Source: an uncultured Flavobacteriales bacterium (GTDB taxonomy: Bacteria > Bacteroidota > Bacteroidia > Flavobacteriales > Flavobacteriaceae). From it: 22,679 nt of DNA. Shown one piece after another: positions 12,726-22,679 of the stretch; within the stretch, counting starts at the first letter, position 1, and each line of letters starts with the position of its first letter. The stretch spans positions 1 to 22,679 of the forward strand of contig CAJVXR010000017.1 in the NCBI GenBank assembly GCA_913009535.1, in the 5' to 3' direction. The notes beneath the pieces were generated by a model. It ran no database searches. It saw nothing but the letters and a program-made list of their open reading frames with translations, and was not told where the DNA came from. Made by a program: the position numbers and the translations under genes.

Positions 12726-13754
12726 ATGAAAAATTTTACAATATATATATCAATGTTTCTTATGTTAGGTAGCTGTTTAGATACTCCAAAAGAATCAAAT
12801 GAAATTAACCTATATAGTCAAAGGCACTATAAAGTAGATGAAATGCAGTATGCGGCCTTTGAAAAACAAACGGGTATAAAAGTTAATGTAGTTAAGGCTA
12901 ATGCAGATGAACTTATAGAACGATTAAAAAATGAAGGTGAAAATAGTCCTGCTGATTTATTTATCACAGTAGATGCAGGTAAACTTCATAAAGCTAGTGA
13001 TTTAAACTTATTGCAAAAAATATCTTCTCCAGTCATTAATCAAAATGTTGATAGTGCTTTAAAAGATGTTAATGGGTATTGGATTCCTATAACTTACAGA
13101 GCTAGAATTATCGTCTATAGTAAAGATAGAGTGAATGCAGATGAATTGTCAACTTACGCTAATCTAACTAGTGAAGAGTGGAAAAATAAAATTCTAGTAA
13201 GATCTTCTTCCAATGCATACAATCAAGCACTATTATCTTCAATTATCGCTAATAAAGGAGTAGATGCTGCTTCAAAATGGGCTACTGATTTAGTTAAAAA
13301 CTTTGCTAGAGATCCAAAAGGTAGTGATAGAGATCAAGTAAAAGCCATTGCTGCTGGTCAAGGTGACCTTGCGATAGTAAACTCTTATTATATTGGACTT
13401 TTACTTTCATCAGAAAAAGAAGAAGAATTAAAAGCAGGCAATTCTGTAGGCGTATTTTTCCCAAATCAAGGAGTAAATGAATCAGGAAGTCATATAAATG
13501 TTTCTGGAATTGGGTTAACAAAAAATGCTCCTAATAAAGATAATGCTATTAAGTTAATGGAATTTTTAACTAGCGAGTCAGCCCAAAAGACTTACGTAAA
13601 TACTAGTTATGAATATCCAGCAAACCCAATTGTAGAACCAAACGAAATAGTGAAAAAATGGGGTTCCTTCAAAAAAGATAACCTAGATTTGAATCAATTA
13701 GGCGTTTACAGAGGTAAAGCAATTGAAATATTTGATAAATCAGCTTGGAAATAA
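12726..13754 (+). CDS. Ferric iron ABC transporter substrate-binding lipoprotein (FbpA/FutA-type)
   Basis: A 342-aa extracytoplasmic solute-binding protein that would bind Fe3+ and pass it to the permease. The signal peptide ends in lipobox LGSC, with the lipidated cysteine at residue 17. The mature part starts with the FutA-like INLYSQRHY (Tyr30, His34, Tyr35). The middle has ITYRARIIVYS and SSNAYNQ, and the later NSYYIG pair supplies the tyrosines typical of ferric-binding proteins. The residues after the lipid cysteine (LDTPKES) lack the acidic run seen on the two lipoproteins of the other operon, which would suit retention in the periplasm. It is the first gene of a three-gene operon and overlaps the permease gene by 10 nt. 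Confidence 0.93.
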   Translation: MKNFTIYISMFLMLGSCLDTPKESNEINLYSQRHYKVDEMQYAAFEKQTGIKVNVVKANADELIERLKNEGENSPADLFITVDAGKLHKASDLNLLQKISSPVINQNVDSALKDVNGYWIPITYRARIIVYSKDRVNADELSTYANLTSEEWKNKILVRSSSNAYNQALLSSIIANKGVDAASKWATDLVKNFARDPKGSDRDQVKAIAAGQGDLAIVNSYYIGLLLSSEKEEELKAGNSVGVFFPNQGVNESGSHINVSGIGLTKNAPNKDNAIKLMEFLTSESAQKTYVNTSYEYPANPIVEPNEIVKKWGSFKKDNLDLNQLGVYRGKAIEIFDKSAWK

Positions 13755-15358
13755 TAAAGAAAATTGTTCAGATAGAACATAAAAGATGGGTTTTAGGTAG
13801 TGGTTTAGTGGCTTTAGTGCTTATACTACCGATAATATTCCTCTTTAGTAATATTTTTGAAATTGAACAAAGTGCATTTGTATACTTATGGAAAACCCTC
13901 CTTTTAGATTATAGTCTTAATACCCTATACTTAATTTTAATAACAAGTTTTTTTGCATTACTATTTGGAATATTTCCCGCATGGTACGTGAGTAACTATA
14001 GTTTTAAATTCAGGACTTTTTTTGACATAGCACTATTTCTACCTTTAGCAATCCCAACTTATATAATGGCCTTCACCTACAGTGATATATTAAGTTTTAC
14101 TGGACCACTGCAATCATTTTTAAGAAATAACTTTCCTGAATTATCAGATATTTTCAATAACGATTACTTACAAATTGAAATTCTTGGTGTTATTCTTGGA
14201 CTCGCATTGTACCCTTATGTCTATACTGCTTCTAGAGTTTCTTTTAGCCTAATAGGCTCTACGTATATAAATATGTCTAAAAACCTTGGATTATCTTCTA
14301 CTAAACTATTTTTTAAAGTAATTATTCCGTTATCTAAACCTGCTATATTTTCAGGTCTATTTTTAGTTATTATGGAGGTTTTAAACGAGTATGGCGCTGT
14401 AAAATATTTTGGGGTTAATACTTATACTACTGGAATATTTAGAGCATGGTTTTCTATGGGTAATGAAAATGCTGCTATTCAGCTTGCTTGCCTTCTAATT
14501 TTTATTGTATTTACCATACTATTTTTAGAGAAAATCAGTTATAAAAAATCTAAATTTTATTATTCTACAAATACTAAGACTGAAAAATTAAATATACCTA
14601 CCTCTAAGAAATATTTCTATATCTACACCCTTTGTTCTGTTCCTTTTATAATCGGTTTCTTAATCCCCTTTATTTATATTTTGAATAATAGTATACTAAA
14701 CTATAGTAATACGGATTTTGATAAATTATTAGATTTAAGTTTAAATTCTATTTCGGTTTCTGCTATTTCTACAATTTTAATAATAATAATAGCATTACTG
14801 TTTTTGTATGTTGAAAAAATATCAAAATTAAAAATCAATACCTTTATAAGTCAGGTTACATCTATCGGCTATGTTATTCCAGGGGCAGTTATTGGTTTAG
14901 CTGTTATCTTGTTATTTACAAAAATTCCAATGCTGAAATCTTTCTCATTAATAGGTTCTTTTTATGTACTTATTTATGCGTATGTTTTTCGTTTTTTAGC
15001 CGTTGGAAAGTCACCAATTAAATCTAGCCTTGAAAAGCAACCTGAATCTTATGACGAAACAGCTAAAACATTAGGTCTAGGTCCATTTAAAATATTACAA
15101 AAAATTCATTTCCCAATAAATAGACTTGCTTTAATAACTGCTTTTATTGTTACCTTTGTTGACTTATTAAAAGAATTACCTATAACGTTAATTCTAAGAC
15201 CATTTAACTTTGACACCTTAGCTACTCAAACCTACGAGTATGCTATTGAAGAAATGTTAATTGAATCTAGTAGTTATTCATTAGCAATTATATTAATTGG
15301 TAGTTTGATGTTAATACTTTTAAAATATATTATTAATAAACAAATCAATGCATCTTAA
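13745..15358 (+). CDS. Ferric iron ABC transporter permease (fused FbpB-type)
   Basis: A 537-aa inner-membrane protein containing two permease units in tandem, the usual FbpB form, so one chain can build the whole channel. There are about twelve hydrophobic segments. Each half has an ATPase-docking EAA loop: NMSKNLGLSSTKLFFKVIIP in the first and ETAKTLGLGPFKILQKIHFP in the second. The apparent start is TTG at 13745, inside the last codons of the binding-protein gene; there is no ATG before the first membrane helix, and the next candidate, GTG at 13808, would cut into that helix. The 3' end overlaps the ATPase gene by 11 nt, so the three genes look tightly coupled. Confidence 0.93.
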   Translation: MEIIKKIVQIEHKRWVLGSGLVALVLILPIIFLFSNIFEIEQSAFVYLWKTLLLDYSLNTLYLILITSFFALLFGIFPAWYVSNYSFKFRTFFDIALFLPLAIPTYIMAFTYSDILSFTGPLQSFLRNNFPELSDIFNNDYLQIEILGVILGLALYPYVYTASRVSFSLIGSTYINMSKNLGLSSTKLFFKVIIPLSKPAIFSGLFLVIMEVLNEYGAVKYFGVNTYTTGIFRAWFSMGNENAAIQLACLLIFIVFTILFLEKISYKKSKFYYSTNTKTEKLNIPTSKKYFYIYTLCSVPFIIGFLIPFIYILNNSILNYSNTDFDKLLDLSLNSISVSAISTILIIIIALLFLYVEKISKLKINTFISQVTSIGYVIPGAVIGLAVILLFTKIPMLKSFSLIGSFYVLIYAYVFRFLAVGKSPIKSSLEKQPESYDETAKTLGLGPFKILQKIHFPINRLALITAFIVTFVDLLKELPITLILRPFNFDTLATQTYEYAIEEMLIESSSYSLAIILIGSLMLILLKYIINKQINAS

Positions 15359-16307
15359 AGTAAGTAACCTCGTTAAGTTTTATAATAAAAGTCAGCCTCT
15401 TATTGAGTCGCTAGATTTCTCCGTTGAAAAAGGAGAGATTGTGTCTTTTCTTGGTGAAAGCGGGGTTGGTAAAACTACTTTTTTAAAATGTATTTCTGGT
15501 CTAGAAAATATAAATTCAGGATCAATAGTCTTAAACAACAAAACTCTTAATAATAAAGATGTTTTTGTACGACCTCAAGACAGAAAAATTGGTTTTGTTT
15601 TTCAGGATTACCCACTTTTTCCTCATTTAAATTTAAAAGATAATATTGTTTTTAATTTAGATAAAAAGTATTTGTCTAATTTAAATTATATGCTATCTCT
15701 AACTAATCTGACCGATTTAGTGGATAGATTTCCTCATGAACTTTCTGGAGGTGAACAGCAAAGAGCATGCATTGCAAGAGCTCTAATAAGGGAGCCTGAT
15801 TTATTACTACTAGATGAACCTTTTAGTAATCTAGATGTAGCTATAAAACACTCTATAAGAGATGAGATCTACAGAATAATTAAAGCTACAAAAACTACTA
15901 CAATCTTAGTCACTCATGATATTAATGATTCACTTAATATTGCTGATAAGATATTAGTATTTAAAGCAGGTAAACTTCAACAATATGATGATCCTGTTGA
16001 GATGTACTGTAAACCTGCTAATTGTTATTGTGCTAGAATTTTAGGTGGAATTAATAAGCTGACTAAAGACGATAAGCCATATTACATTAGACCAGAAAAA
16101 ATTAAAATTGAGAAAACATCCGACCTCAAACTTATTGTTGAAAAATCACTCTTTCAGGGTAAAGAATACAATATTACAGCTAAATATGAAGATGAGGTAT
16201 GGAGCCTATTTAGTTCTATTGCTTACAAAAAAAATGATGTTATATATGTTAGTTTTAACGATGAAGATTTAATTTATTTCCCTCCCAATTGTCTTAACTA
16301 TTTTTAA
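15348..16307 (+). CDS. Ferric iron ABC transporter ATP-binding protein (FbpC-type)
   Basis: The 319-aa energising subunit of the importer. The ATPase domain (1-235) has Walker A GESGVGKTT (36-44), Q-loop FVFQD, signature LSGGE (132-136), Walker B LLLLDE (152-157), D-loop SNLD and switch His190 in LVTHD. The C-terminal 80 residues, containing YIRPEKIKIE, match the TOBE-like regulatory extension of FbpC/PotA-class ATPases. It is the last gene of the operon. The convergent TonB receptor gene ends 33 bp away, and I see no terminator hairpin between them. Confidence 0.93.
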   Translation: MHLKVSNLVKFYNKSQPLIESLDFSVEKGEIVSFLGESGVGKTTFLKCISGLENINSGSIVLNNKTLNNKDVFVRPQDRKIGFVFQDYPLFPHLNLKDNIVFNLDKKYLSNLNYMLSLTNLTDLVDRFPHELSGGEQQRACIARALIREPDLLLLDEPFSNLDVAIKHSIRDEIYRIIKATKTTTILVTHDINDSLNIADKILVFKAGKLQQYDDPVEMYCKPANCYCARILGGINKLTKDDKPYYIRPEKIKIEKTSDLKLIVEKSLFQGKEYNITAKYEDEVWSLFSSIAYKKNDVIYVSFNDEDLIYFPPNCLNYF

Positions 16308-16340: not shown

Positions 16341-18770
16341 TCAAAATTTAATTTCAAACGTCAAGTAATAATTGCGTGGAGCTGATGGTATAATTCCTGG
16401 CCCAGGATAACCAGTCGCTCTTCTCAAGAAATAATTATTATTTAATATATTATTTACTCCAAATTCTAATTTGTAATTTTTAAATTTATAAGAAGAAGAA
16501 AAATCTAAAATATCATAAGTTGGTATTTGCCCTATAACCCCACTTAAATTACTTTCAATAGAGTTTGACGAATCTGTAAATTGGTCAGAAAGATAGGTGT
16601 ACTGAATATTTAATAATATATTTTTATAGCCAAGCTTAGCTCCAGTTTTAATATTTATTTTTGGAACAAATTCTAATCTTTTTCCAGTGATTCCATTAAT
16701 TTCAGATTTAACATATTTAGAATCAATAATAGATGTATTAATAAAGTAATTTAAGATGAAATTGTTATCGCGAATAAATAATTTATTTAAATTAAAATCT
16801 ACTATTGATTCAACTCCATAAATAACAGCATCTCCTACGTTTCCTCTTTGACTTTTAATGTTTCCATCTGGGGAGACGATTTGAGTAAAACCTATTCTAT
16901 CGTTGTAAAATAAATGGAATAGACTAATATCATAAGAAATTAATTTTTTATTATTTCCTCTTACTCCTATATCAATTGTATACCCTTTTTCATCAGATAT
17001 GTTTGGATCTATAACAAATGCAGGATTAAAAATACTAATATCCGAGAAAGTAACAGATCTGTAATTTTGTGATGCATTAGCATACATTTCTATGTACTTA
17101 TTAGGTTTATAGCTACCACCTAGACCAAATAATAAAAAAGACCTTTTTCTTATTTGATTTTCAAAAACAGTATTATCGAATATTACATTGCCTGCATTGT
17201 CAAAATTAATTTGACTATAATATCCATCACTTTCAGTTCTTATGTTTTCATATCTAATTCCTGGAGTTAGTGAAAACCTTTCAGATACATAAAATATATT
17301 TTCTGTGAATAGTGATATATTTTGATTGGGGTATTTATAATTAGATTGATTATTGTAGTATGGATAATCTTGGTATTGAAAGTCAAAGTTAGGTCCATCT
17401 CCATTTGATCCAGGCCCTTGAACAGATGTATTATTAGATTTATAGTATTTAAGGCCAAACAAGACTATAGATTTCCTGTTCATAAAATTATAATTATGCA
17501 ATATTCGAGATTCTAAACCATAATTATTAAAATCTCCTTTTATTAAATCTCTTTCCTCTCCAGAATCTATTTGATCAACTCTATTGTATCTAATCCCTAG
17601 AGCATTCCTTTGTGAATTTAAACCGAAAAAATTGAGAGAAAAGTTTGTTTTATCTGAAATCTTGTGCTCCAATTTTAAATTGTATAAGAGCCATTTTAAT
17701 TCAAACCAATTCCTTGCTCTGTTAGACTGAAATGGATCTTGATTAAACATATTGTCTGAAAGACCACCTGCTTGCTGAGCCAAATAAGTAAGATAACTTA
17801 CCTCGGATGATAGTTTTGTTTTTTGATTAAAATCATACGCTAAAAACAAATGAGAGTTTGTTGAGTCATAGCTTGAATTATCTCTAAAACCATCTCCTTT
17901 TTTGCTATTTACATATGCATAATAACTAAGTTTTTTGTTCGTACCACTTAGACTTGTGAAATTAGTGTATAAGCCATTACTTCCTAAAGTATTTCTAGAA
18001 ATAACCTCTACAAACTTATCTTTTACTGGCTTTTTTAATATAAAATTTACAAGACCACCAAATTGTGTTCCATACTGTAGTGATGCTGCACCTCTTACAA
18101 TTTGAATTTCTTCTAGAGCTTCAGCTGGAGGTGAATAATAACTTTCAGGATAGCCTAAAACATCAGCACTCATGTCATATCCATTTTGACGTGTATTGAA
18201 GTTTGATGTTCTGTTTGGATCTAATCCTCTACCTCCAATATGAATTTGTAAGCCTGCATCATCATTCTGGTAAATATTTAATCCTGCTATTTGACTATAA
18301 ATCTGTCTAGAATTATTTGAAGCTAAATTTGCCATTGATTGGCTAACGAGTATCACCTCAGATTTTTTTCCAGCATAAATAGATGTTCCTACAATGTCAT
18401 TTAATCTTTTTAATTCAAAAGTTTTCCTATTTATTGTAGTGACAATCACTTCTGATAGCTCTTCAATCAAAACAGGATATACTATGTCAATGTTATAATC
18501 TTTATCTAATAATAAAATTTGTTTTTCAATAAAAGGTCTTCCCTCTAAAGAGTAAAATAAACTTAAGGAGTCTGAATCAGAGTAAAATTCATAATAACCT
18601 TCTGAATCCGAGATGGCTAATAAACCAGAATCATTATCATATATACTTACATTGCTAATTCTTGTGTTGGAACCTTCTTCGAAAATAATTCCAAAAACCT
18701 TATTACTTGCATTGGAGAACATTGAAAGTAAACTTATAAAAATAAATATTTTAAAAACCCTTAATTTCAT
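16341..18770 (-). CDS. FecA-like TonB-dependent outer-membrane receptor
   Basis: An 809-aa outer-membrane receptor, probably for a ferric chelate such as ferric citrate. A signal peptide (about 1-22) is followed by a carboxypeptidase-regulatory-like domain (about 25-100), a plug domain with IHIGGRGLDPNRTSNFNTRQ and EEIQIVRGAASLQYGTQFGG, and a 22-strand-type barrel ending in the outer-membrane C-terminal phenylalanine (FEIKF). The plug motif, and QQAGGLSDNMF with NRARNWF in the barrel, resemble FecA-type receptors; the ligand is inferred from this and from the iron-gene context. No FecR/sigma signalling partner is seen. The start overlaps the end of the carboxylase-like gene by 20 nt, so the two are co-transcribed and probably translationally coupled. 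Confidence 0.92.
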   Translation of the reverse strand: MKLRVFKIFIFISLLSMFSNASNKVFGIIFEEGSNTRISNVSIYDNDSGLLAISDSEGYYEFYSDSDSLSLFYSLEGRPFIEKQILLLDKDYNIDIVYPVLIEELSEVIVTTINRKTFELKRLNDIVGTSIYAGKKSEVILVSQSMANLASNNSRQIYSQIAGLNIYQNDDAGLQIHIGGRGLDPNRTSNFNTRQNGYDMSADVLGYPESYYSPPAEALEEIQIVRGAASLQYGTQFGGLVNFILKKPVKDKFVEVISRNTLGSNGLYTNFTSLSGTNKKLSYYAYVNSKKGDGFRDNSSYDSTNSHLFLAYDFNQKTKLSSEVSYLTYLAQQAGGLSDNMFNQDPFQSNRARNWFELKWLLYNLKLEHKISDKTNFSLNFFGLNSQRNALGIRYNRVDQIDSGEERDLIKGDFNNYGLESRILHNYNFMNRKSIVLFGLKYYKSNNTSVQGPGSNGDGPNFDFQYQDYPYYNNQSNYKYPNQNISLFTENIFYVSERFSLTPGIRYENIRTESDGYYSQINFDNAGNVIFDNTVFENQIRKRSFLLFGLGGSYKPNKYIEMYANASQNYRSVTFSDISIFNPAFVIDPNISDEKGYTIDIGVRGNNKKLISYDISLFHLFYNDRIGFTQIVSPDGNIKSQRGNVGDAVIYGVESIVDFNLNKLFIRDNNFILNYFINTSIIDSKYVKSEINGITGKRLEFVPKINIKTGAKLGYKNILLNIQYTYLSDQFTDSSNSIESNLSGVIGQIPTYDILDFSSSYKFKNYKLEFGVNNILNNNYFLRRATGYPGPGIIPSAPRNYYLTFEIKF

Positions 18771-20124
18771 CGTCTATTGGAATTATCCATTTTTTATTTT
18801 TAAAAGATTCTTTTTCTTTGTAGAGATCTACTTCCGAGTTTACAAAACGTTTATTAGACCTTCCGTTTAATGACACATAACTTTCTGCATAAACTTCAAC
18901 TCTCCCATACCCTTTATTTAAATAATAATCCCCTAAATAGTGAGCATATTCTAAAATAAAGTCTGGCTGAAAACTCATTTGCTTTTCTTGAAAGGAAGTT
19001 AAAAACTCTTCATTATTTACATAAAAGTAAGATTCGCTATTTTTACTTTTTATTTTAAAAGTTGTGTAACCTATTTTCTCAACCAACATAACTCTCCAGG
19101 AAAACCTATAACCTTCCTCGCTCCAAAACAATTCACTTGGATATAATAGATATCTAAAGGGCAAAAATAGTTGAATTACAAAAAACACAGAAATTATTGA
19201 CAACACAATTTTCCTATTTTTTATAGTTATACTTTCTTCTTTTATTTTTTTATTAATAATAAACTTTTTTCTAATTGGCTCAATTATTTTTTTAATCCAT
19301 TTAATTATTTTTTCATGAACATTATAATCGAAGAATATAAGAGAACCAACAATCATAATGTATGGAAACATTCCTATAGGAAAGAGAACTCCGGTAAAGA
19401 GATGAAAAAATATTACAAGAATAAACCCAATTATTCTAGTCTTTTTGTACAACAATAAAAATGGTATGGATAAATCATAAAACATACCACCCCAGCTCAT
19501 AAAATAATGAACCCATTCTTGCTGCATGAATGTCTCACCAATTAAAGGGATATCATATTTTGAAGGTAACCATAACTTTAAAGGCATGGCATTGAAAAGC
19601 CAGTCTGAGTTAATTTTTGCTAAACCAGAGTAAAAATATACAATTGAAAGTAATAGTTTAATGCAATCAATTGACCATTTTGGGATTTCTTTGTAGCTTT
19701 TTTTTCTTAAAATATTATCTATTGAGAAACATGCATTAGCAGGCAAAAAAATCATTAAAAAACTTAGAATACTTATAAAGTAATAATGATTCAAATATGT
19801 AGTCTTATCAATTAATTCTATGTAGGTAAAGGACAAAAAGAACAAAACCATTGAAGCTCTATATTTATAACCAATTGTTATAAAAATTGAGCTAATTATA
19901 CAGATAATAAATATTATGTAGTTGTAATTACCTAAATCTTTAACCCAATCAAATCCATAGTATTTAAAATGAAATTTAGGTTCAATGTACAGTGTATAGA
20001 TCCATCCTTTATTCCAAAATCTAAGAATACTATATAGCATCATTAAACCAAACCCAATTCTAAAAACAGCTAAAGGACTAGAATTAGTTTTTAAATTTAT
20101 ATATGTACTAATTTTTGAATTCAT
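18751..20124 (-). CDS. HTTM / vitamin-K-dependent gamma-carboxylase-like membrane protein
   Basis: A 457-aa protein with several membrane helices (about 20-300) and a soluble C-terminal domain. It aligns along most of its length with the animal vitamin-K-dependent gamma-glutamyl carboxylase. IDKTTYLNHYYF contains His113, matching human His160. YFYSGLAKINSDW contains Lys170, matching the catalytic base Lys218 (human GVKKLDADW). HLFTGVLFPIGMFPYIM matches the conserved FxIGMF segment, and YVSLNGRSNKRFV resembles human WVSINDRFQQRIF. Carboxylation or quinone oxidation in bacteria is unproven. Its place between an imelysin gene and a FecA-like receptor suggests a role in iron uptake. An intrinsic terminator ends 6 nt before its start codon, so expression probably depends on read-through. 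Confidence 0.9.
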   Translation of the reverse strand: MNSKISTYINLKTNSSPLAVFRIGFGLMMLYSILRFWNKGWIYTLYIEPKFHFKYYGFDWVKDLGNYNYIIFIICIISSIFITIGYKYRASMVLFFLSFTYIELIDKTTYLNHYYFISILSFLMIFLPANACFSIDNILRKKSYKEIPKWSIDCIKLLLSIVYFYSGLAKINSDWLFNAMPLKLWLPSKYDIPLIGETFMQQEWVHYFMSWGGMFYDLSIPFLLLYKKTRIIGFILVIFFHLFTGVLFPIGMFPYIMIVGSLIFFDYNVHEKIIKWIKKIIEPIRKKFIINKKIKEESITIKNRKIVLSIISVFFVIQLFLPFRYLLYPSELFWSEEGYRFSWRVMLVEKIGYTTFKIKSKNSESYFYVNNEEFLTSFQEKQMSFQPDFILEYAHYLGDYYLNKGYGRVEVYAESYVSLNGRSNKRFVNSEVDLYKEKESFKNKKWIIPIDDEIKGF

Positions 20125-20193: not shown

Positions 20194-21276
20194 TTAGTCA
20201 CCATCAGCATCAACGTAATCAGTTGGAATTTGTAAAACAGAAAGCATGTCTGTTTTCAACAAAATAGTTCCTTGTTGAATTGCATCATAAGCTTCAAGTA
20301 CTTGAATATTATTTGTTGAAATTTGATTATAAAAATTATCGTCAAGATCATTTATTAAACTTTCAGCAATATTAAACTGATCTAATATGTCTGTCGATAA
20401 ATCAGAATACTCATCAGTTGAAACTTCAGAAATGTATTGTCTTAAACTAACTCCTCCATTGCCATTGTAAAAGTTTTTAATTGCTTGAAAACCTTCCAAG
20501 GCTAATGCTTTAGAAATATTTTGATTGTAAAAAGCCTCAACTTTCTCAGGTAAAGCACCTCCAGAAAATACTCCAGCTGGTATACCAAATTTGTTCGCTC
20601 TAAATCCTTTTTCGTAATAGTAGATAAAGTCATTAGTCATTTTATTTACACTAGATGTAGCGGTATTTTCAACCGAACTAATAAAGGTATTTCTATAACT
20701 TTGCCAATCTTCAACAATAGGAGAAGTATTTTGAAGCATTTGGTTGATAACCTGTGATAAATAGGATAAATATTGAGGTTCAGTATTATATTTTGAAAGA
20801 ATAAGTTCATCACTAGAATTAATTCCATACAATAAGTAATCAAGCGCAGGAAAACCTTGTGCTGAGTAATTATTGCTATTGTTAAAATCAGTGTTCCCAT
20901 TTTGAATATTTAACTCAATCCTAGAGACAGTAGTTGGATAAATATTCATTTTAGATTTGTAATAGTTTACTTCTGCAAGTCCAATGTCAAACATTTCTAC
21001 ATGTTGCCATGACATATATGCATTGATGAAACTTGTCCTTAGCATATCTAGATTTTGTTGATCTGGTAAATTAGCAAATGTATTGCCAGATTCTTCTAAT
21101 AATACTAGTTTGTTTGTTAATGTTGTATAAGACGGGCTGATAAAATTATCGGCCCAATTTGTAAGCATTTCAGATTTTTGTTCCCATACTTCACTGGAAT
21201 TGTCATCACTGTCAGAACTACAGGAAAAAATTAGTAAGGTTAATATGAATGAAAATGAGAATATTTTTTTTATCAT
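20194..21276 (-). CDS. Imelysin (M75) family iron-uptake lipoprotein
   Basis: A 360-aa lipoprotein counted from the ATG at 21276. An in-frame ATG at 21303 would put nine unlikely residues before the signal peptide and lies in a hairpin stem. The signal peptide MIKKIFSFSFILTLLIFSC gives lipid cysteine 19, followed by the acidic run SSDSDDNSSE that resembles a Bacteroidota surface-export signal. The helical imelysin domain has the early FINAYMSWQHVEMFDIG and the mid-protein GFPALDYLLYG (141-151), the position of the GxHxxE motif but with Pro143 for His and Asp146 for Glu. Imelysin-like proteins are linked to iron uptake, not proven to be peptidases. Hairpins flank the gene on both sides. Confidence 0.92.
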   Translation of the reverse strand: MIKKIFSFSFILTLLIFSCSSDSDDNSSEVWEQKSEMLTNWADNFISPSYTTLTNKLVLLEESGNTFANLPDQQNLDMLRTSFINAYMSWQHVEMFDIGLAEVNYYKSKMNIYPTTVSRIELNIQNGNTDFNNSNNYSAQGFPALDYLLYGINSSDELILSKYNTEPQYLSYLSQVINQMLQNTSPIVEDWQSYRNTFISSVENTATSSVNKMTNDFIYYYEKGFRANKFGIPAGVFSGGALPEKVEAFYNQNISKALALEGFQAIKNFYNGNGGVSLRQYISEVSTDEYSDLSTDILDQFNIAESLINDLDDNFYNQISTNNIQVLEAYDAIQQGTILLKTDMLSVLQIPTDYVDADGD

Positions 21277-21282
21277 AGCTCG

Positions 21283-21290
21283 CAAATATA
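21283..21290 (-). promoter_or_regulatory. Possible internal -7 promoter box before the imelysin gene
   Basis: On the minus strand TATATTTG matches TAnnTTTG and is followed by C, as is common in this phylum. It ends 6 nt before the imelysin ATG, so any transcript would be leaderless or nearly so. No TTG lies 19-21 nt upstream, because that position is occupied by the hairpin. It is a weak candidate. Confidence 0.3.
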
Positions 21291-21291
21291 A

Positions 21292-21325
21292 AGAACTCAG
21301 CATCTAAATAATGATGCTGAGTTCT
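21292..21325 (-). terminator. Strong hairpin between DUF4856 and imelysin genes (weak terminator or processing site)
   Basis: A perfect 13-bp inverted repeat, AGAACTCAGCATC (21292-21304) and GATGCTGAGTTCT (21313-21325), with an 8-nt loop. It begins 15 nt after the DUF4856 stop. On the minus strand the tail is only TTATATTTG, so termination should be inefficient. The hairpin may instead protect the 3' end of the upstream mRNA or set the ratio between the two lipoproteins. Confidence 0.65.
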
Positions 21326-21340: not shown

Positions 21341-22555
21341 TTAGTCAATCATTAAAGTATTTCCGTAAGCAGCTTTAATAACATCAATCATACCTTGACC
21401 TGAAGCCGTAATGTAGATTGGGTTGATGTTATGAAAATCAGCAAAGTATGTATCTAAGAAATACTCAACATCTCCTTTAGACATGTATGGCTCATCATTA
21501 CCATTATTGGTAAATTGTAAGCTTAAAATGAATCCATATGCTTCAGATAAAGAGTGATGAGCTTTTGCTACATTTCCTTCTTCAACTTTAGCCAAGTAAT
21601 CATTTAAATAGTGTATTGCATAGTATCCAATTACTTTTGATAATTCAACTTGAATAATATCAGCTTGTGCTTCTCTAAGATCATAATCTCTATTAACAAT
21701 TGCAGTTCTTCCCATAATAAATGCATCATATACTGTTTGACCAATGCCTGGCTCATAACCACCTTCAGCATTTACTTTTTTAAAATATTTCATAAGTAAG
21801 TTACCTGAACCTGCTGGCGCACTTCCTATAGTAGAACCTACGTCATCTAAATCACCTTCTTGTCCATATAAATATCCAAATCCTTCATCCCATTTGTGTT
21901 CCATATCTGTATAAGGTTTCCCATCAGATAATACACCATTATCATTGTCATCAATTCTTGATCCAGAATCTAATTGATTTGGATGAATATAATTGTTAAC
22001 GATTTGGTCTAAAGTAAATGCACCAATTAATCCTTTGAAGAATAACTGATCTAATTCTTGACCCATAGCATTAATTTGGTATGTAGAACCTCCGTCAGGT
22101 GAAGTAATTGAACCAGGCATTCCTGGAGCCGCATCCATATTCCAATTTGGAGCTACGTTTGAAGCAAAATCAGCAATATACTGGTTGAATCTTTCCTTGG
22201 TAGTAGCGCTTCCTGCTAAAGTAGATGAAGCTGTTTTGCTACCGATAATTTTTGATGTTCCATTTAATAAATCATTAGTAAACCCTGCTGAGGAACCGTC
22301 AGATCCATTAAACATTAAGTCTAATCCTGTTGCAGTTGATCCTTCAGAGTTTAATGCTGCATATAATTCATCAGCTTGTTCTAATCTGGTTGTTTGACCA
22401 GAATAACTAACTGTAGACTCATTATTTCTTTCAAAAGAATATGTTTCTGGAGCTTGAAGAGCTGGTACAACTGGATCATTGTTATCATCATCATCACAAG
22501 AAGTGAAAGTGAATGAAATTAAAGCCAATGGTAGTAATAATAAATAATTTTTCAT
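21341..22555 (-). CDS. DUF4856 domain-containing lipoprotein
   Basis: A 404-aa lipoprotein and the first gene of the minus-strand iron operon. The signal peptide ends in TSC with lipid cysteine 20, followed directly by DDDDNND, an acidic run typical of lipoproteins sent to the cell surface in Bacteroidota. The family motif MEHKWDEGFGYLYG lies near the middle (about residues 218-231). The rest is mostly helical, with imelysin-like features such as EAQADIIQVELSKVIGYYAIHYLN. The function of DUF4856 is not known; it regularly neighbours imelysin genes, and an iron-binding or capture role is inference. Its composition is less AT-skewed than its neighbours (many Gly, Ala and Asp), which fits a highly expressed surface protein. 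Confidence 0.9.
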   Translation of the reverse strand: MKNYLLLLPLALISFTFTSCDDDDNNDPVVPALQAPETYSFERNNESTVSYSGQTTRLEQADELYAALNSEGSTATGLDLMFNGSDGSSAGFTNDLLNGTSKIIGSKTASSTLAGSATTKERFNQYIADFASNVAPNWNMDAAPGMPGSITSPDGGSTYQINAMGQELDQLFFKGLIGAFTLDQIVNNYIHPNQLDSGSRIDDNDNGVLSDGKPYTDMEHKWDEGFGYLYGQEGDLDDVGSTIGSAPAGSGNLLMKYFKKVNAEGGYEPGIGQTVYDAFIMGRTAIVNRDYDLREAQADIIQVELSKVIGYYAIHYLNDYLAKVEEGNVAKAHHSLSEAYGFILSLQFTNNGNDEPYMSKGDVEYFLDTYFADFHNINPIYITASGQGMIDVIKAAYGNTLMID

Positions 22556-22620: not shown

Positions 22621-22643
22621 TTATTTAGACTAATTTTAAATAA
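22621..22643 (-). promoter_or_regulatory. Putative metal-responsive operator of the receptor/imelysin operon
   Basis: Read on the minus strand this is TTATTTAAA-N5-TCTAAATAA, with 8 of 9 arm positions paired. The right arm is identical to that of the site at 12644-12666, and the left arm differs by one base. It ends one nucleotide before the TTTTG of the promoter. An extra TCTAAATAA half-site on the plus strand (22657-22665) lies further upstream and faces it. Confidence 0.65.
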
Positions 22644-22679
22644 TATTTTTATTAAATCTAAATAAAACAATTTTTCTTG

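Follow-up and report, generated by a model that had tools for sequence, protein, structure and literature searches.

A GGCX-family membrane protein encoded in a conserved imelysin and TonB-dependent receptor operon with Fur-like boxes in Flavobacteriales

GGCX, the vitamin K-dependent gamma-carboxylase, is known for its chemistry on animal clotting and bone proteins. Here we describe a bacterial member of its family, encoded in a stretch of 22,679 nucleotides (nt) from an uncultured Flavobacteriales bacterium (contig CAJVXR010000017.1, positions 1 to 22,679, forward strand), hereafter the window. The gene is a minus-strand open reading frame (ORF) with bounds at exactly 18751-20124, and it stands in an operon of four genes with Fur-box-like sites upstream, as listed here.

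18751..20124, minus strand: GGCX-family membrane protein of 457 amino acids (HTTM plus VKGC lumenal domain), from the ORF list, Pfam, phmmer and the predicted fold
20194..21303, minus strand: imelysin (Peptidase_M75, PF09375) lipoprotein, assigned by Pfam, in which the GxHxxE motif reads GFPALD
16341..18770, minus strand: FecA-like TonB-dependent receptor, named from its PDB match, whose ORF shares 20 nt with the carboxylase-like gene
21341..22555, minus strand: DUF4856 lipoprotein, first gene of the operon, with a weak match to an FEA1-related model, below cut-off
22621..22643, minus strand: Fur-box-like palindrome TTATTTAAAATTAGTCTAAATAA upstream of the operon, with 17 of 18 specified bases
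22645..22663, minus strand: second Fur-box-like match ATTTAGATTTAATAAAAAT, agreeing with another pattern at 16 of 18 specified bases
12726..16307, plus strand: ATP-binding cassette transporter made up of binding protein, permease and ATPase, running convergently to the operon, assigned by Pfam and taken by us to be FbpABC-like

Family membership and operon context

The product of 18751..20124 is a member of the GGCX/VKGC superfamily. Pfam matched HTTM (PF05090, E 6e-76) and VKGC_lumenal_dom (PF22777, E 3e-57), both above cut-off, and phmmer placed human GGCX chains on residues 5-450 of the protein at E about 1e-42, a match well past chance. The predicted fold of the protein is that of GGCX, which was its best match by fold and by sequence, far above all else. 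The original prediction described a full-length relative whose match reaches the C-terminal domain, and this was borne out: the GGCX-family fold spans the whole protein, and YVSLNGRSNKRFV aligns on human WVSINDRFQQRIF. The end of the protein falls near human residue 511, and the alignments stop at human 505-511.

When the helix bounds of the model are used, the charges of the loops obey the positive-inside rule, placing the loops between transmembrane (TM) helices TM3-4, TM5-6 and TM7-8 and the C-terminal domain outside; the protein is predicted to lie in the membrane, its active site on the periplasmic side. Both lipoproteins of the operon carry an acidic stretch right after the lipid cysteine (means of 2.0 and 3.0 acidic residues per eight). 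Such a stretch suits surface export in Bacteroidota lipoproteins.

We compared gene order in the 80 loci holding the best 80 of at least 569 confirmed relatives, which as top-scoring relatives are biased to close kin, mostly Flavobacteriaceae, and in a phylum sample, an even set of 395 genomes in which 82 carry the lumenal domain (97 matches). Imelysin, enzyme and receptor genes follow one another in this order on one strand in 80/80 loci, with a DUF4856 gene preceding them in 77/80. In the phylum sample an imelysin lies beside the enzyme in 70 of the 97 cases and a receptor in 72. For residue counts the relatives were sorted by their neighbours into group A, next to an imelysin, a receptor or both (152 sequences), and group B, next to neither (24 sequences), so that the lack of imelysin in group B is true by definition. 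The median gap between imelysin and enzyme genes is 35.5 nt (n=150); one locus, L010, has about 1.9 kb there. With starts taken from the longest ORFs, the enzyme gene runs into the receptor gene in 136 of 151 group A loci, and 20 nt is the commonest overlap. The receptor of the window has FecA as its best PDB match (E 2e-19).

Genomes with the lumenal domain also tend to carry the partner genes. Imelysin is present in 72 of the 82 carriers as against 18 of the 313 genomes without the domain, and DUF4856 in 53/82 versus 5/313; the Fisher p values for this co-occurrence are descriptive, as kinship is ignored in them. The carriers lacking imelysin, 10 in all, are those that yielded group B proteins alone or the broken L175 (G240 contig 45), whose VKGC gene is split over two ORFs and is either a pseudogene or a sequencing error. 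Tandem DUF4856 genes stand ahead of the imelysin gene at L225:2563-5368 and L018:3945-6665. The FbpABC-like transporter is also convergent with the operon in the near relatives L001 and L003, and any Fbp-like match was seen in 6 of the 80 loci.

We scored operon starts with a Fur-box-like pattern that was set before the upstream regions were examined. A score of at least 16 was reached at 55/58 tested operon starts and at 11/142 control genes of the same loci, counts that are not independent since the loci are related. The operon of the window has such a box at its start and is probably regulated by Fur. In Riemerella anatipestifer, the available part of PMC5609570 lists in Table 4 a TonB-dependent receptor (RAYM_09779), a vitamin K-dependent gamma-carboxylase (09784), an imelysin lipoprotein (09789) and a hypothetical protein (09794), all four as putatively Fur-regulated. 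The ratio WT-Fe/WT+Fe for these genes is 2.11 to 3.07, raised by iron limitation, and that for delta-fur+Fe/WT+Fe is smaller, at 1.36 to 1.93 (PMC5609570, same part). Because of the Fur-like box, the Riemerella listing, the FecA-like receptor and the FbpABC-like transporter, the label of iron-uptake operon is well supported. The original prediction set the gene in an iron-uptake operon, with the imelysin lipoprotein gene (20194-21303) on one side and that of the FecA-like receptor (16341-18770) on the other, and the results above agree with it; they also supply the survey of imelysin and DUF4856 neighbours that it proposed.

Active-site residues and subfamilies

Residue roles were taken from the available part of a cryo-electron microscopy paper (PMC12589487), and the alignment held the window protein, a human segment and 176 bacterial relatives, namely 80 from genome contigs and 96 of the 97 matches of the phylum sample (L175 omitted). 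The positions that matter most are encoded as follows.

19615..19617, minus strand: codon of Lys170 (human Lys218, the base), from the alignment; Lys in 176/176 relatives
19786..19788, minus strand: codon of His113 (human His160), with the codon before it encoding Asn112 (human Asn159), from the alignment; His and Asn in 176/176
19075..19125, minus strand: Glu-side linker, codons 334-350 (human 390-406), with the pattern W-S/T-E-E-G-Y-R-F-S-W-R-V-M-L-x-E-K, from the alignment of relatives

In the phmmer alignment GLAKINSDW lies over human GVKKLDADW, which equates Lys170 with Lys218 and places Ala169 at human Lys217, and DKTTYLNH lies over human DKTSWNNH, equating His113 with His160 and Asn112 with Asn159. 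The predicted equivalence of Lys170 and His113 to the human catalytic pair therefore stood, and the corresponding check on homologues in the same context found 0/152 group A proteins without the Lys and His equivalents. More broadly, equivalents of K218, H160, N159, W223, G259, F286 and F299 are kept in all 176 relatives. According to the same part of PMC12589487, N159 and H160 hold the Glu side chain in GGCX, and human Lys217 has an effect on substrate binding and none on catalysis. That Lys170 and the quinol pocket persist in 176/176 is hard to explain without chemistry, and it is very improbable that the protein has a purely structural role, or one in assembling the lipoproteins or the receptor, its catalytic residues retained only for binding a quinone or lipid.

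The Glu-side linker (human 390-404) is a defining feature of the metazoan enzyme. In the bacterial relatives the equivalents of its residues 392 (Glu), 394 (Gly) and 399 (Trp) are invariant (176/176), and Arg stands at the equivalents of 396 and 400 in 174/176 and 170/176, respectively. Within the window protein Tyr395 is retained as Tyr339, Met401 is replaced by Val345, and neither position of the human disulfide pair Cys99/Cys450 is Cys. The invariant quinol residues and the bacterial linker signature together indicate that the quinol half of the site is kept and that the substrate half, judged from the alignment, is also conserved, to a different, bacterial pattern.

The two linker Arg bear on another function, the carboxylation or isomerisation of a small molecule such as a polycarboxylate or citrate-type siderophore, which would be imported by the FecA-like receptor and bound by these Arg. 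Besides the Arg themselves, the closeness of the receptor to FecA in the PDB, the overlap of the receptor's longest ORF with the enzyme gene and the want of a Gla-like (gamma-carboxyglutamate) Glu cluster in the operon proteins would suit such a role. The same Arg occur, though, in most of group B, where the receptor is not adjacent, and may therefore be general; we consider this explanation improbable.

A FastTree phylogeny of a thinned set, with L001-L080 reduced to every eighth, served as a sequence check of the two groups. Imelysin-linked proteins formed one clade (clade A), split from the rest with support of 1.0 in this thinned set, and it includes a Persicobacter protein, L230, that adjoins an imelysin. 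One protein, L169, fell outside both large groups. In 16 of the 24 group B loci (L123, L128, L132, L137, L141, L142 and others) the upstream neighbour comes from a single gene cluster, which is RibF-type by Pfam (one member scanned).

Candidate substrates and possible reactions

Our tentative reading, which we put somewhat short of an even chance, is that a Fur-controlled GGCX-family enzyme carries out a protein or ligand carboxylation linked to imelysin. The three partner proteins were searched for candidate Glu in alignments of 124 linked imelysins, 105 DUF4856 rows (window included) and 116 full-length receptors; the short loci L081-L110 (about 3.4 kb) cannot show DUF4856, and their cut imelysins are outside the 124. 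Single conserved Glu were found in imelysin (E231 in 124/124 linked, E256 in 123/124) and DUF4856 (E167, E219, E224 and E338, each at least 90%), and nine scattered Glu of the receptor are conserved at 95% or more. A Gla-domain-like substrate within the operon was dropped as a candidate, no cluster of conserved Glu having been seen in the three partners.

Glu231 may be the best single candidate residue on imelysin. It is present in all 124 linked imelysins, in 4/13 related unlinked ones and in 1/40 canonical ones, counted after removal of two duplicate imelysins and without L183 among the unlinked, as its enzyme lies just beyond the fetched stretch. Glu256 is nearly as constant, yet it is common elsewhere too. 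The linked imelysins also depart from the canonical GxHxxE motif, which the imelysin of the window lacks: the His position is Pro in 103/124 and His in 1/124, as against His in 39/40 canonical proteins, and the Glu position is Asp in 104/124. A solved Psychrobacter imelysin has a GxPxxE-type variant, according to the available part of PMC3143127. DUF4856 proteins share conserved EHxWDE and HxxxE elements, which suggest a metal site and could bind metal without any modification. The DUF4856 lipoprotein at 21341-22555 has a confident predicted fold and no PDB match at E 0.001.

If carboxylation is correct, the DUF4856 lipoprotein, the imelysin lipoprotein, the GGCX-type membrane enzyme and the FecA-like receptor would form a four-gene, Fur-controlled iron-uptake system. 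The enzyme would be an inner-membrane protein whose active site is turned toward the periplasm, where Lys170 would deprotonate menaquinol and O2 would convert the deprotonated menaquinol to a strong base, with menaquinone epoxide as by-product. This base would remove a proton from a carboxylate substrate held by Asn112, His113 and the linker, and addition of CO2 would give a malonate-type (Gla-like) ligand for a metal, probably iron. The likeliest substrate would be a carboxylate residue of imelysin during its periplasmic passage, with Glu231 in first place. A bolder form of this proposal, in which menaquinol- and O2-driven carboxylation under Fur control puts a Gla-type malonate-like ligand on an iron-capture lipoprotein of the surface, or on that protein's iron chelate, is in our estimate doubtful.

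Several findings weigh against carboxylation, and they weaken in part the original prediction that Gla is made on the adjacent lipoproteins. The linker is identical at 5 of 15 positions and replaced at 10 (human 390-404 WTNGLYGYSWDMMVH, window WSEEGYRFSWRVMLV). Human Asn158 and Arg436, which hold the Glu backbone in GGCX (PMC12589487, available part), correspond to Leu111 and Gln382 in the window protein. Human I532, G558 and T591, assigned to the propeptide-binding domain in the same part of PMC12589487, have no counterpart, and since the protein ends at human 505-511 the later propeptide-binding domain and the arch are missing. No Gla-like conserved Glu cluster was found in the imelysin, DUF4856 or receptor alignments of the operon. 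VKOR is not enriched with the enzyme, being found in 19/82 carriers and 74/313 non-carriers. On the same side, Lys350 of the linked imelysins shows the same 124/124 pattern as Glu231, which is therefore a lead and not proof, and the pattern may be one of descent, since the linked copies are related to one another, 80 of the 124 being from the 80 nearest loci. One protein, L134, belongs to clade A by the tree and has no partner genes nearby; it was tallied in group B for the residue counts. Additionally, a Leptospira relative is reported to form the epoxide with no carboxylation, and its Glu-interaction region is said to have diverged. As for Fur control, Table 5 in the available part of PMC5609570 gives no Fur box for RAYM_09779-09794.

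The main rival takes up several of these points. It holds that the protein is a quinol epoxidase that does not carboxylate proteins. The quinol/O2 half-reaction would be kept, and the base, or the consumption of O2 and quinol as such, would serve other iron-handling chemistry, for instance to deprotonate or oxidise a bound ligand or to control redox conditions locally. Retention of the quinol-side residues alongside an altered Glu-side linker and altered backbone ligands would fit this, as would the VKOR counts, the reported behavior of the Leptospira relative, and L161 and L230, two divergent clade A members that follow a di-haem oxidoreductase and an imelysin. The holders of the Glu side chain, N159 and H160, are nevertheless kept throughout, and all 152 group A proteins have Tyr or Phe where human GGCX has Tyr395; on balance we regard an epoxidase as unlikely, if far from negligible.

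Quinone supply and O2 bear on the carboxylation and epoxidase readings alike. VKOR recycles vitamin K epoxide in animals, and an animal-type vitamin K cycle through VKOR was dropped, as VKOR showed no co-occurrence with the enzyme. Flavobacteria make menaquinone, so recycling of the quinone may be unnecessary; the cost of quinone lost without recycling lacks explanation and counts against a classical vitamin K system. COX1 was found in 80/80 tested carriers (80 of 82), consistent with O2 use, and also in 74/80 tested non-carriers (80 of 313), 73 of them above the family cut-off, which makes the link weak; O2 dependence through a COX1 association was dropped for that reason.

A di-haem oxidoreductase (PF06537) gene and an imelysin gene stand directly before the VKGC gene at L230:5198-10311 and L161:7989-11928. 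In nine more group A loci the haem enzyme is encoded on the opposite strand, and in eight of these an imelysin match adjoins it; 104 of 114 long group A loci show no di-haem oxidoreductase gene. A GGCX-type enzyme may thus have joined an existing arrangement of imelysin and oxidative enzyme. The original prediction had offered quinone-linked redox chemistry on iron as an alternative; it found no direct support, and the link between di-haem oxidoreductase and imelysin keeps redox roles alive.

Should carboxylation hold, prokaryotic vitamin K-dependent carboxylation for iron would be a candidate for the bacterial equivalent of the animal pathway. A menaquinol-using enzyme in iron uptake would also tie the respiratory quinone pool to flavobacterial metal acquisition. 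The role of bacterial GGCX relatives becomes testable through this operon, because its setting (iron starvation) is defined, three of its proteins and one residue are candidates for the substrate, and the active site of its enzyme is strictly conserved.

Comparison with known systems

In the literature searched, which leaves most subscription journals outside, we found no paper on the function of the imelysin-linked GGCX subfamily, none joining HTTM and imelysin, and no mention of DUF4856. Among the matches listed, only PMC5609570 joins vitamin K-dependent gamma-carboxylase, Flavobacteri and iron, and the one paper that joins HTTM and carboxylase concerns human GGCX phenotypes. The Riemerella genes RAYM_09779-09794 are a close parallel in arrangement: their numbering follows the order of the window operon, and the published Riemerella Fur box ATTTAGAATTATTCTAAAT resembles the pattern in the window. 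In the available part of that source they are represented by name and expression table.

Leptospira offers two further comparisons. It carries a gene for a GGCX homologue (PMC4555120, available part), and its LruB belongs to clusters of imelysin, di-haem oxidoreductase and imelysin that resemble the window operon in setting imelysins by an oxidative enzyme and in responding to iron or peroxide, but the enzyme there is a di-haem protein (PMC7567364, PMC13066512, available parts).

Within the superfamily, group B proteins share both domains and the catalytic residues with the window enzyme, and they are nearer to human GGCX than the window enzyme is at three positions. The equivalent of 158 is Asn in 17/24 of group B versus Leu in group A, that of 290 is Asn in 23/24 versus Thr in 151/152, and that of 401 is Met in 23/24 versus Val in 152/152; at 395, however, group B has His in 23/24 where group A has Tyr or Phe. 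Compared with metazoan GGCX, the window enzyme has Ala in place of Lys217, is changed at Cys99, Cys450, N158, R436 and M401, has nothing past human 505-511, and stands in a Fur-linked operon in which no Gla-type partner was seen. The distinctive point is that one GGCX subfamily has an active-site pattern of its own, strictly kept, and is tied to a Fur-type iron operon.

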